Part shown: positions 3,413 to 11,069 of the stretch, piece after piece
Layout: every line of letters starts with the position of its first letter
Numbering within the stretch: the stretch's first letter is position 1
DNA from: a virus
IMG/VR virus record: IMGVR_UViG_3300047388_000242
Span: 1 to 32,782 of that record
DNA length: 32,782 nt
Reading direction: 5' to 3' (one strand)
Translations under genes and position numbers: made by a program
Notes under the pieces: generated by a model
Databases searched by the model: none
The model's input: the letters and a program-made list of their open reading frames with translations, nothing else
Told to the model about the DNA's origin: nothing

Positions 3413-3503
3413 AACTCAACCCTCCCAGTCCCAGAAGAGCGGGGCGAGCGGACCACGCTTCGAGCCCGCAGAACAGGTCGATCGCAAGCGGCTGCGTCAG
3501 CAT
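3354..3503 (-). pseudogene. Truncated C5 cytosine methyltransferase N-terminus
   Basis: A 49-codon frame whose ATG overlaps the stop of the preceding methyltransferase gene (ATGCTGA). It begins MLTQPLAIDLFCGLEAWSA, matching the start of dcm-type enzymes, where motif I is DLFCGxGG with preceding hydrophobics. After motif I the resemblance fades and no catalytic PCQ motif is present; the frame stops after running into the next gene. It is probably what is left of a second, cytosine-C5 methyltransferase, although a short expressed peptide cannot be excluded. Confidence 0.5.
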
Positions 3504-4588
3504 GACCGCACCTCCGCGAACATGCCGGCGTCATCACGGATGCGGCGGTCCATCATCGCGGCATATGCCGGATTGAGTTCGATCAAGAGGGCATTGCGCT
3601 GCAGGCGGTCGGCAACCATGCCAGTGGTGCCGGCACCGGCGAACGGATCGAGCACCGTGCCACCGATCGAACAGCCAGCCTTGATGCACGGCTCGATTAG
3701 CGCCGTCGGGAATGTCGCGAAATGCGCTTCCCTGAATGGCTGCGTGGTTACTTCCCAGACGCTGCGCTTGTTGCGTTTCTCAACGACAAAACCGCCTTTA
3801 CCACTCATTTGGAGGCTGCTATTGGCGTTGGCCCCTTGTCGGCCCACGGCTTTTGTGCGGTGTTCCTCGCTCTCGGAGCGCTCATACTCCGTGACGGCCT
3901 TGTGGATTTTGTTGCCGCTCGCTCGGCCCTTCTCGCGTCCATTACGGTGAAACGAACCATGACCGCCCGGGCCAGTATCCCAGCCATCCGGAAACTTGGT
4001 CTTCTCAGGATCGTAGGAGGCAGGCTCCGCAATCGCCTCGGCATCATAAAAATACCGCGCGTTCTTGCTCAGCAGGAAAATGTATTCATGCGCCTTGGTA
4101 CAGCGGTCGGTGACACTCTCCGGCATCGGGTTGGGTTTTGACCAGATGATGTCCTGGCGCAGATACCAGCCGTCAGCCTGTAGCGCGAAGGCAACGCGCC
4201 ATGGAATGCCGATTAGGTCTTTGGGCTTTATCCCGGCAAACATCTTTGTGCCGCTTGCTGATCCCCGCGCGGCAGCTACTGTCCTGGCCCCGACAGATGG
4301 ATTGCCGCGCTCTGCCATTGATGCTTCGCCGCGACCGCCTTGCGTCGCATAACTGTCGCCGAGATTGAGCCACAGCGTCCCGTCATCCCGCAGCACGCGC
4401 CGCACTTCTCGGAACACCGCAACCATTTCGGCTACGAAGGCGTCAGGTGTCGTCTCTAGTCCGATCTGGCCGTCAATGCCGTAATCTCGTAGTCCGAAGT
4501 AAGGCGGCGAGGTCACGCAGCAGTGCACGGATTGATCCGGCATCGTGCGCAGGATGTCGCGACAATCGCCTTGGCGGAAGGTCAGCAT
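3497..4588 (-). CDS. Class-beta DNA methyltransferase (N4-C or N6-A)
   Basis: A 363-aa modification enzyme that transfers methyl from S-adenosylmethionine to an exocyclic amine in DNA. Motif IV TSPPY is at residues 26-30 and the SAM-binding motif I DPFAGAGTTG at 314-323; this order defines the beta class. TSPPY is typical of N4-cytosine enzymes but also occurs in N6-adenine ones, so the target base is open. The middle, about residues 185-270, is a variable recognition region. The start at 4588 forms a TGATG overlap with the DUF1376 gene; a GTG three codons earlier is possible. No restriction partner is adjacent, so it is probably an orphan used for protection or regulation. Confidence 0.92.
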   Translation of the reverse strand: MLTFRQGDCRDILRTMPDQSVHCCVTSPPYFGLRDYGIDGQIGLETTPDAFVAEMVAVFREVRRVLRDDGTLWLNLGDSYATQGGRGEASMAERGNPSVGARTVAAARGSASGTKMFAGIKPKDLIGIPWRVAFALQADGWYLRQDIIWSKPNPMPESVTDRCTKAHEYIFLLSKNARYFYDAEAIAEPASYDPEKTKFPDGWDTGPGGHGSFHRNGREKGRASGNKIHKAVTEYERSESEEHRTKAVGRQGANANSSLQMSGKGGFVVEKRNKRSVWEVTTQPFREAHFATFPTALIEPCIKAGCSIGGTVLDPFAGAGTTGMVADRLQRNALLIELNPAYAAMMDRRIRDDAGMFAEVRSC

Positions 4589-5193
4589 CACACCCACCCG
4601 CGTTTTTTCATGATCAATGCCAGTTCCTCGGTCTGCGAAATGCCCGGGCTCGCGCCGCCAGCCTCCATTGCCGAGCCAGCCGGCCCATCCGCGGTTTCCG
4701 GCGTTGAATTTGTTGGGTTTTCTCTCGCGCGCGCGGCACCAACAAAGGTAGAAGTAATATCTTCTTGTGTAGTGTGGTTAACGTTTGCTTCCGTTTTGCT
4801 TGGCGGTTTGCTTAACGTTTGCTGGTCCGTTTGCTTAACGTTTGCTTGACGTTTGCTTACGCCGTTCCACCTCGCCAACGTGGACGCGGTCCCGCCCTTC
4901 GAACCCGCCGCACGCCGCCGTTCCATTAGTCCAACCATCTTGCCGAGTTCGGCATCGATCCGCTTGTGCCGCCAGCCGTCATGGAAGAACGCCTCGATCG
5001 TCGGCCGGGTCTGGCGCCAGGACTTGACCGGCATCCGCGCGATCTGCGCCAGTTTGTGGTCGTCGTCGGGCAGCCCGTCATGCATCCAGTAGTGCATGAT
5101 CAGGCATAGATACGCCCCGGTTTCCGCCGCCGAGAGATGCACGGTGTCAGTGAGAAAATCGGGGATGTAGAGCGGCATCCAGTTGCGTCGCAT
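4588..5193 (-). CDS. DUF1376 (YdaU-like) replication-type protein
   Basis: A 201-aa protein. Residues 1-100 match the DUF1376 pattern (WMPLYIPDFLTDTVHLSAAE, followed by LCLIMHYWMHDGLPDDDHKLAQIA), a winged-helix-like domain found in phage replication proteins. A Lys/Gln/Thr linker follows at about 110-140, encoded by the iteron cluster, and the C-terminus ends in a short helix. A GGAAGGG site precedes the ATG. Iterons inside the initiator gene resemble the lambda O arrangement, so this is the best candidate for the replication initiator. No helicase or primase gene was recognised, so host enzymes are probably recruited. Confidence 0.82.
   Translation of the reverse strand: MRRNWMPLYIPDFLTDTVHLSAAETGAYLCLIMHYWMHDGLPDDDHKLAQIARMPVKSWRQTRPTIEAFFHDGWRHKRIDAELGKMVGLMERRRAAGSKGGTASTLARWNGVSKRQANVKQTDQQTLSKPPSKTEANVNHTTQEDITSTFVGAARARENPTNSTPETADGPAGSAMEAGGASPGISQTEELALIMKKRGWV
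4741..4780. other. AT-rich segment with inverted repeat beside iterons
   Basis: A locally AT-rich stretch in an otherwise GC-rich genome, adjoining the iterons. It contains AGAAG-TAATAT-CTTCT at about 4750-4765, a 5-bp inverted repeat around an AT core. This is the expected form of a DNA-unwinding element next to initiator binding sites. It is translated within the DUF1376 gene (TTQEDITSTFV). Confidence 0.5.
4782..4857. repeat. Seven iterons, probable replication origin
   Basis: Seven copies of CGTTTGCT (complement AGCAAACG) occur with ends at 4789, 4800, 4812, 4823, 4835, 4846 and 4857, giving spacings of 11, 12, 11, 12, 11 and 11 bp, about one helical turn. Copy 2 has one extra T and copy 3 starts with G; the others are exact. 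The spacing moves the unit through all three codon positions of the overlapping gene, so it is not a protein repeat and is likely conserved as a DNA-binding array. Confidence 0.7.
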
Positions 5194-5196
5194 CAG

Positions 5197-5724
5197 TCAC
5201 CCTTCCGCTGGATCAGCGCTCCACTCCTTCGGCGCTACTTTCCGGATCTCGGCCTCACTGAGAACTTCGCCGACAATTTCCTCGGGTTTTACCTTCGCGG
5301 CGATCGCCTTGAACCAAGATGGCATCAGCGCCCAGAACACGCGCACGTCGGCTCCGGTGCAATCGCGCAGCTTTTTGCCGTTGGGTTGCACGAGGTCGAG
5401 CAAAACGAGCGTCTTGACGCGCTCGGCTGTTTCGGCAACCGCCGCTTTTGCGGCTTCGACCTCTTCCGCCGAAGGGCGAGGCCGCCGACGCGGTGGCTTC
5501 TGTATTTGATCCAAATCATTATCGAAGGCGCGGCGCAATGCCTCCTCGACCAACGCCGGTACCATTTCGGTTTTGGCCAGATACAATTCCTCCAATTCCT
5601 CGCGCGAGGCATCCGGATGCTCGGTGATCAGACGTAGCAGCACGCCGCGCAGATGGGTCTCGTCGCGCCACGTTGAACGCGTGTGGCCTCGTACGCCGGG
5701 AGTATCGATGTGGATGTCAGTCAT
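5197..5724 (-). CDS. Hypothetical early protein
   Basis: A 175-aa soluble protein, ATGA-coupled to the upstream repeat protein, with a strong AAGGAG 7 nt before the ATG. The N-terminal part is helical (HLRGVLLRLITEHPDASREELEELYLA as consecutive helix segments). It is followed by a basic linker KPPRRRPRPS and an Ala/Glu-rich helix. The C-terminus (RVFWALMPSWFKAIAAKVKP) contains conserved-looking aromatic residues. It directly precedes the DUF1376 gene, so it may take part in replication; no family is recognised. Confidence 0.7.
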   Translation of the reverse strand: MTDIHIDTPGVRGHTRSTWRDETHLRGVLLRLITEHPDASREELEELYLAKTEMVPALVEEALRRAFDNDLDQIQKPPRRRPRPSAEEVEAAKAAVAETAERVKTLVLLDLVQPNGKKLRDCTGADVRVFWALMPSWFKAIAAKVKPEEIVGEVLSEAEIRKVAPKEWSADPAEG

Positions 5725-6548
5725 GGTCTTTCTCCTTGTTGCCTACTGGCGGGTAAAGCTCCGGGGATTTGCTGCATAACCTTGTGGCTGAATCCCTGCC
5801 GTTGAGTCATTGTTGGCAGATGATCCGGCGCCGCGCCTAGTTCTTTGAGAACGGCATAGGACAGTGCGCGGTCGCGATAGTACGCGCGCTCACGTTCAAG
5901 AATCGATTCGCGATTAGCCTCCCGATATGCACGCTCAGTTTTACGGGCCAACTCACGATTGGCTTCCCGATACGCGTTATTACGTTCACAGAGTCGCTTA
6001 CGGTTTGCTGCGTAATACATGCGTGCACGTTTACGGGTCGATTCACGGTCAGCGTCGCGACGCATGCGTACGTATTCCTTGAGCCGTTCCCGATTAGCCG
6101 CGTAATATGCGCGCGCGCGTTCCTTGACCCGTTCCGGATTAGCCTTCCGATACATGCGCTGACGTTCATTGATCTGCTCACGGTGGGTCGTCAGATACAT
6201 GCGCTGGTATTCGGGATCGCGATGCGCGCGCCTGCGTTCATTGATCTGCTCACGGTTAGCCTTCGACCACTCACGGGCACACTCATTCCGCCACTCACGA
6301 TTGGCCGCGTGATATGCACGCTGCTGCTCTTTGCGGTGCTCACGATTGGCCTCTAGATATGTGCGGCGTTGCTCACGATTGGCCGCCTCATACGCACGTT
6401 GGCGTTCACGGATTGATTCACAATTGGCTTCTCGATACACGCGAGCGCGTTCGCGTGTTTGTATACGGCGGCATCCGGACGAGCAGGTAAGTCCCCGCGA
6501 ATCTTTGGCTTGAAATCCGGTCCCGCAAATCACGCACGGCTTCATCAT
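5721..6548 (-). CDS. Zinc-knuckle protein with 15-residue charged repeats
   Basis: A 275-aa protein with GGAGG 6-7 nt before the first of two ATGs. The N-terminus has a probable zinc site C5-x2-C8-x13-C22-x3-C26. Residues about 37-230 are around thirteen tandem units of roughly 15 residues built on YREANRExxxERxRA, most exactly 15 long; two are shortened (11 and 9). The block is very rich in Arg, Glu, Asn and Tyr and should form a long charged helix or superhelix. Similar YxxNRExxxE repeats occur beside HNH or zinc motifs in some phage proteins. It could bind DNA or RNA along a rod; function unknown. Confidence 0.8.
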   Translation of the reverse strand: MMKPCVICGTGFQAKDSRGLTCSSGCRRIQTRERARVYREANCESIRERQRAYEAANREQRRTYLEANREHRKEQQRAYHAANREWRNECAREWSKANREQINERRRAHRDPEYQRMYLTTHREQINERQRMYRKANPERVKERARAYYAANRERLKEYVRMRRDADRESTRKRARMYYAANRKRLCERNNAYREANRELARKTERAYREANRESILERERAYYRDRALSYAVLKELGAAPDHLPTMTQRQGFSHKVMQQIPGALPASRQQGERP

Positions 6549-10553: not shown

Positions 10554-11069
10554 ATGCCCAAGGGTGGACCATGGCTTACTGACGAAATCGAAACCCTGAT
10601 CGGACTATGGGGCGCCATACCGTCTTATTCTGCCAGCCAGCTCGCCGCCAGATTAGGTCGCACCCGCAACGCGATCGCCGGCAAGATTTACAGACTGCGC
10701 GTCGCCGGCTCGGTAAAAGCGGAACTGAAACCCGGCGGCGCCGGCAAAAAATTCGCAATCAACCCGCGCGCCGGGCAGCCTCTGCGAGGCGTCTGCTCCG
10801 GACAACAAAAGCGAGATAAAGTGAACAATAACAAGATCTTAGCAGCGATTCCCCCCCCCCTCGAATTCGCGTCTGAGCCCGGTCCTCTGATCTCGATCGG
10901 CTGCCCGTGTTCGGTGGTCGAGCTTGAACCGAATAATTGTAAATGGCCGATCGGCGACCCGATGGCGGCCGAATTCCATTTCTGCGGCGCCTGGACGCCA
11001 TCAACGCGACAGCCGCGCTATTGCCGGGATCATCTGCGCGTGGCATTTCGCAGCGGAGGCAACCCATGA
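10554..11069 (+). CDS. gcrA: GcrA family cell-cycle regulator homologue
   Basis: A 171-aa homologue of GcrA, the alphaproteobacterial protein that binds sigma-70 holoenzyme and promotes transcription at GANTC-methylated promoters. The N-terminal helix-turn-helix is at 7-50 (TDEIETLIGLWG, then ASQLAARLGRTRNAIAGKIY). The C-terminal sigma-interacting region starts at C129 (CKWPIGDP, FHFCGAW, RYCRDHL). An AAGGGG site precedes the ATG. A run of ten C at 10851-10860 encodes Pro residues in the linker and could slip. Phage copies are known; here it leads the only rightward operon and is the prime candidate for controlling phage or host promoters. Confidence 0.9.
   Translation: MPKGGPWLTDEIETLIGLWGAIPSYSASQLAARLGRTRNAIAGKIYRLRVAGSVKAELKPGGAGKKFAINPRAGQPLRGVCSGQQKRDKVNNNKILAAIPPPLEFASEPGPLISIGCPCSVVELEPNNCKWPIGDPMAAEFHFCGAWTPSTRQPRYCRDHLRVAFRSGGNP

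Follow-up and report, generated by a model that had tools for sequence, protein, structure and literature searches.

In bacteriophage lambda, the initiator gene O holds the origin of replication in its middle part, where iterons are followed by an AT-rich tract (PMC7466680), and in phage SPP1 the initiator gene 38 contains oriL, in which direct repeats that are bound by gp38 lie together with an AT-rich unwinding element (PMC6316719). As a kind, the phage origin inside an initiator gene is already known from these two genes. The rep gene of the lactococcal phage Tuc2009 is annotated 'contains origin of replication' and carries CAACCA four times at 11-bp spacing in the middle of the gene (about aa 114-127); this annotation, which is independent, links the 11-bp layout with an origin. 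Iterons within the initiator gene also occur in the RepA_N plasmid initiators. Here we describe a putative origin of this kind within a DUF1376 gene of a 32,782-nucleotide virus sequence (IMG/VR record IMGVR_UViG_3300047388_000242), which is referred to below, as a whole, as the window. The coordinates of its features are collected in Table 1.

Table 1. Features of the DUF1376 locus in the window
Feature	Position	Strand	Basis or remark
DUF1376 gene, 201 aa, probable replication initiator	4588-5193	-	PF07120; PHROGs
DUF1376 domain, aa 4-83, predicted winged helix	4945-5184	-	Pfam; AlphaFold2
Post-domain basic segment, aa 84-112, with G..GG motif (AGSKGG), proposed iteron-specificity segment	4858-4944	-	
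Iteron array, seven CGTTTGCT-type units (AGCAAACG in gene direction), 11/12 bp pitch	4782-4857	+	
AT-rich tract, adjoining the array on its 3' side (gene direction), candidate unwinding element	4738-4781	.	
AGAAGTAATATCTTCT dyad, from the original prediction	4750-4765	.	Inside the AT-rich tract
Short C-terminal helix, aa 189-197 (in ELALIMKKRGWV)	4603-4629	-	Predicted, after disordered region

The array and the gene that carries it

The original prediction had proposed seven copies of one unit at 11-12 bp spacing. The number and the spacing held, but the units are not all identical, as five are exact copies of CGTTTGCT (starting on the + strand at 4782, 4816, 4828, 4839 and 4850) and two are variants, CGTTTTGCT at 4792-4800, which has one additional T, and GGTTTGCT at 4805-4812. 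Counting these two variants, the array of seven units was confirmed as real. The units themselves occupy 4782-4857; the start first given (4745) takes in a dyad. In gene direction, the AGCAAA cores lie at offsets 336, 347, 358, 370, 381, 393 and 404, with steps of 11, 11, 12, 11, 12 and 11 bp and codon phases of 0, 2, 1, 1, 0, 0 and 2; since the units fall in shifting codon phase, the array cannot have been produced by repetition in the protein, as had been argued from the 11 and 12 bp steps. Outside the array, only one further copy of CGTTTGCT was found in the 32.8 kb, compared to a whole-window expectation of 1.2. The array reached a phased-chain score of 40, while the best of 5000 synonymous-codon shuffles reached 32 (0/5000 match), whole-window Markov resampling (100 runs) gave at most 18, and the best chain elsewhere in the window scored 12.

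The array is located directly past the codons of the winged-helix domain. The GC content of the AT-rich tract beside it is 0.36, compared to a window mean of 0.60, which is within the lowest 0.6% of 45-bp windows. When the window gene was aligned with nine close relatives, the GC3 of the block containing this tract was 0.27-0.47 across the ten genes (0.29 in the window gene), compared to 0.73-0.90 in their domains. Of the AT-rich dyad proposed next to the array, the AT-rich tract that holds AGAAGTAATATCTTCT is conserved, but the dyad itself is not conserved in relatives and was rejected as a conserved element. GC skew, which had been suggested as a check, gave no support: the cumulative skew is almost monotonic and does not turn at the array, so that skew is uninformative as an origin marker here.

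The protein encoded by this gene is a member of DUF1376 (PF07120) by a near-full-length match to the Pfam profile (positions 1-85 of 86, aa 4-83; E 3e-21; 76 bits vs. a cut-off of 30.1). Among PHROGs, the best matches carry the name 'primosomal protein', and none was to O-like PHROGs; no sequence match to lambda O was seen among its Pfam and PHROG hits, which were to DUF1376 and primosomal families. An AlphaFold2 model built with 75 relatives (mean pLDDT 78) predicted a winged helix ending near residue 76 with pLDDT values of 95-98 across most of the domain, a single long helix (residues 77-117) containing the basic segment, a low-confidence region (118-188) encoded by the array, the AT-rich tract and the sequence downstream, and a short helix at residues 189-197. 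Similar ends were found at four other loci (L002, L004, L005 and L125), and we infer from the model that a contact of this C-terminal helix with a helicase or its loader is possible. The top VIA-align matches of aa 1-78 were the winged helices of RepA_N plasmid initiators (4pql, 5kbj and 4pt7; Z 5.2-5.5). The best of these (Z 5.5, 67 residues, rmsd 2.4, about 12% identity) is weak, below the level that separates kinship from a common fold, and thus the modelled likeness is too weak to indicate kinship and may reflect a common fold only. Foldseek alone returned no match of the window model at E <= 0.001.

The window also encodes an integrase, RecT, RecE-like genes and a terminase (virus record). 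The window ORFs that were scanned against Pfam and PHROG included no recognisable helicase or loader. A GcrA-like cell-cycle regulator (10554-11069, + strand; PF07750, E 4e-22) and an N6/N4 DNA methyltransferase (3497-4597, - strand) are encoded by the same phage. In Caulobacter, regulation by GcrA is sensitive to methylation, and for this reason the pair could act on the host cell cycle. A 275-aa protein (5721-6548, - strand) consists of YREANRE-like tandem repeats of about 15 aa with a DNA period of 45 bp, and showed only a weak match to an unknown PHROG.

Phased arrays across DUF1376 and other initiator families

DUF1376 genes were gathered from IMG/VR, bacterial genomes and GenBank phages, yielding 169 unique and 152 non-redundant genes; a first, diverse alignment was too divergent for searches of the locus, and a closer alignment was used. 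In the 152 genes, exact 6-mers in the linker (aa 95-155) recurred in a comb at 11-12, 22-24, 33-36 and 44-46 bp. Compared to the expectation from codon shuffles, the linker counts were 357 vs. 34 at lag 11, 394 vs. 78 at lag 12, 161 vs. 20 at lag 22, 136 vs. 19 at lag 23, 130 vs. 15 at lag 34 and 44 vs. 7 at lag 46. No comb was present from aa 160 on in these genes, and the domain showed a slight excess at lags 11 and 22 only. This small excess comes from gammaproteobacterial members (L127, L219, L205, L208 and L210), in which three to four TTGAACG/CGTTGAA-like units, 11-12 bp apart, lie within the winged-helix codons themselves (aa 57-73). A lag-11 repeat in the linker stretch was found in 59% of DUF1376 genes but in only 5% of 323 neighbouring genes from the same loci, and these neighbours did not show the comb.

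A motif-free search for phased arrays placed 69 of the 152 genes at the lowest attainable p (1/41), where about 4 were expected. About half of the DUF1376 genes thus have no array passing the per-gene test; some arrays may be too degenerate, or the origin may be kept elsewhere. In the 69 genes with significant arrays, AT content over the 40 bp adjoining the array on the 3' side was raised by a mean of 8.2 +/- 1.1% compared to the gene, and no such rise was seen on the 5' side. The array consensus varied from gene to gene (AGCAAAC, GCAAATGC, TAACGAA, ATCGAACG, GTAGCTC, GCGTGCAC, CAACG and others). As far as can be judged from these sequences, the place of the array and its one-turn pitch are conserved in the DUF1376 family and the sequence of the repeat is not. 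Homologues that kept the linker peptide and lost the spacing would have refuted the original prediction; the opposite was seen, with linker peptide and repeat replaced and the 11-12 bp pitch kept at an unchanged position in the gene.

We also scanned IMG/VR by DNA alone for three phased AGCAAAC units, using no protein information, and found at least 119 stretches. Among the matches listed, 87 proteins were profiled (86 ORFs that hold an array, and the window's own), of which 25 were DUF6291, 19 DUF1376 and three DnaB_2, and many PHROG matches of the listed ORFs were primosomal proteins, DnaD-like loaders or replication initiation proteins. With its repeat sequence exchanged, the phased-array layout recurs both within DUF1376 and in further phage initiator families. 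In DUF6291-type genes (L010, L018, L034, L064, L093 and others), a phased AGCAAAC array follows an AG..GG motif, which suggests, in the absence of binding data, that DUF6291 is likewise an origin-binding initiator. One further locus (L107, reverse complement 657-1291) carries a run of AGCAAA cores, over 50 in number and spaced exactly 11 bp apart, without an open frame, and this run is far longer than every in-gene array among the matches listed.

The basic segment and the type of repeat

The type of repeat appears to track a basic segment of about 20 residues after the winged helix, and not the domain, an association that looks new and that linkage may explain in part. Across 63 DUF1376 genes, iteron similarity was associated with similarity of aa 84-105 when the domain was controlled for (partial rho 0.16, 0/300 permutations), while the domain showed no such association given the segment (partial rho 0.014, 112/300 permutations). 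When the segment was cut strictly before the array (39 genes), rho was again 0.16 (5/500 permutations).

As a prediction test, IMG/VR was scanned for two further iterons, and phased, non-redundant ORFs among the matches listed were compared. Within the 45 aa before the array, G..GG was present in 34 of 54 AGCAAAC proteins but in none of 35 TCAACG proteins among the matches listed; conversely, G..S[AG] was present in 25 of the 35 TCAACG proteins vs. 8 of 87 others (p 1.6e-11), again among the matches listed. The two motifs occurred in 24 and 26 of 969 random control windows, respectively, and the exact iteron core was never present inside the motif codons. Among the matches listed, the G..GG set comprised DUF6291, DUF1376, DnaB_2 and Lin1244_N proteins, and the G..S[AG] set DUF1376, Lin1244_N and DnaT. 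The same pairing was seen in a DUF1376 set recruited by protein, and hence without iteron ascertainment, where 8 of 24 genes with G..S[AG] carried CAACG arrays, compared to 3 of 128 others. A third class, A..RW with CAAGCA, was weakly supported (p 0.04 and 0.09 in two tests). Segments of the GGRPKK type (AT-hook-like) in L176, L270, L286 and L162 occur without AGCAA arrays, L176 and L270 having AACCCAG-like units instead; this combination is perhaps a further class. In all of these statistics the sequences are related, and the exact regular expressions were set after viewing the sets.

We therefore put forward, with about even confidence, the hypothesis that the basic segment reads the iteron by a simple code, in which AG..GG would pair with AGCAA(AC), AGKxSAxxR with TCAACG, and AxARW with CAAGCA-like sites. 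Segment and array would then form a cassette that is swapped between initiator genes and across Pfam families (DUF1376, DUF6291, Lin1244_N, and DnaT- or DnaB_2-type), so that origin specificity would be exchanged in one step and could be predicted from protein sequence. A serious competitor, for the code alone, is that segment and array merely move together by recombination, and that it is the winged helix, or another part of the protein, that contacts the DNA. Because the two are adjacent, linkage could explain part of the association, and the C-terminal flank is also weakly associated with the iteron (39 genes; rho 0.09, 22/500 permutations at or above). However, the domain, which is equally near, showed no association in the same 39 genes (rho -0.07), and identical segment-iteron pairs recur on different Pfam families. 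In addition, natural swaps occur: the window relatives L224 and L225 have almost identical domains (89-100% DNA identity), yet differ in the segment and array that follow (57-65%), while L003 and L224 share segment and array (92-100%) with domains at 77-95%. On balance linkage remains a serious possibility, only slightly less favored than the code.

The origin reading and its relation to known systems

We consider it highly probable that these units form the iteron block of a theta-type origin from which the phage replicates, and that this origin is located inside the gene of its own initiator. This reading rests on sequence comparison, which directly shows the array and its pitch, a position shared across the family, more repetition than coding would give, the AT-rich tract and the concentration of arrays in phage initiator genes; binding, melting, helicase recruitment and use as an origin are inferred. 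In the proposed mechanism, the DUF1376 protein, with its winged helix and long basic helix, would bind the AGCAAACG units on one face of the DNA, one protomer per helical turn, and the bound protomers would stack into an O-some-like nucleoprotein complex. This complex would melt the AT-rich tract beside the array and recruit the DnaB helicase, directly or via a loader, like lambda O at ori-lambda. The array would at the same time be translated as a disordered linker that tolerates nearly any peptide, which would leave the DNA free to hold its pitch and change its sequence. No binding, unwinding or replication-start data for any DUF1376 protein were found in the literature and records searched.

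This lack of binding data, or of a DNA-bound structure, leaves room for the array to be bound by a different protein, for example a host factor (DnaA, a nucleoid protein) or one of the phage's other proteins, with the DUF1376 gene as its mere location, and a DnaA-like gene does adjoin DUF1376 in two Rhizobium phages. We regard this as improbable, as the type of array follows a segment of the DUF1376 protein itself, and a host protein would favor a constant site, whereas the iterons differ among close relatives. That the array is instead an operator for transcriptional control by the DUF1376 protein or by a different phage regulator is quite improbable: phased direct repeats in general also serve as operators and a location within a gene does not rule this out, but in every family examined the arrays lie some 200-450 bp into the gene, past any promoter, they are paired with an AT-rich tract, and the sole annotated case of equal pitch, Tuc2009 rep, is an origin. 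Tandem duplication by chance or slippage in a disordered linker, without DNA function, is scarcely credible, since low-complexity linkers do expand and some DUF1376 linkers have 6-bp tandem repeats (lag 6, 430 observed vs. 76 expected), but slippage under coding constraint yields multiples of 3, whereas the comb has peaks not only at 12 but also at 11, 22, 23, 34, 44 and 46, its position in the gene is constant, and the 323 neighbours lack it.

Within the origin reading, what is new is the systematic presence of the array in DUF1376 (and, by many examples, in DUF6291), the one-turn pitch combined with fast turnover of the iteron, and the candidate code between segment and iteron. The earlier remark that no DUF1376 protein had been described with such an array agrees with the literature found, in which DUF1376 is named without iterons; the literature searched held no mention of DUF6291 or Lin1244. 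Annotation gives no function for either DUF1376 or DUF6291, yet both are widespread among phages and prophages. From the present analysis DUF1376 gains a testable role as an origin-binding initiator and a location of its origin at the base-pair level, and the role extends to DUF6291. If the code is true, replication specificity, cross-reactivity between phages and interference by decoy origins would be predictable from sequence, and close relatives that differ chiefly in segment and array offer ready natural swap experiments.

Among known systems, two further lactic phages were considered as having the same layout and rejected: the annotated origin of Lactobacillus phage A2 extends downstream from the end of the primase gene, and TP901-1 rep has only 15-bp repeats without an 11-bp array. 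Tuc2009 rep differs from the DUF1376 genes in that its product is annotated as a DnaD-like helicase loader, its iteron is another one, and neither G..GG nor G..S[AG] directly precedes the repeats. The RepA_N initiators, whose winged helix gave the top, weak structural match, belong to plasmids and not to phages. SPP1 gene 38, like the DUF1376 gene of the window, holds direct repeats and an AT-rich element within the initiator gene, and the same is true of lambda and its Stx phage relatives, which have iterons and an AT-rich tract in the initiator gene. The parallel with lambda drawn in the original prediction extends to the order of the parts (winged-helix domain, iterons, AT-rich tract). As to the neighbourhood, a loader (DnaC/P-like), DnaB-like helicase or DnaA-like gene often adjoins DUF1376 in GenBank phages, a helicase or loader gene is adjacent in several relatives, and in lambda the loader gene follows, as it does in several DUF1376 phages; in the window itself neither a helicase nor a loader was recognised. 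The lambda iterons, however, are four 18-bp sites at steps of 20-24 bp (annotation), compared to seven sites of roughly 8 bp, spaced 11-12 bp apart, in the window, so that the DUF1376 origin would be lambda-like in its working and not of the lambda sequence type.
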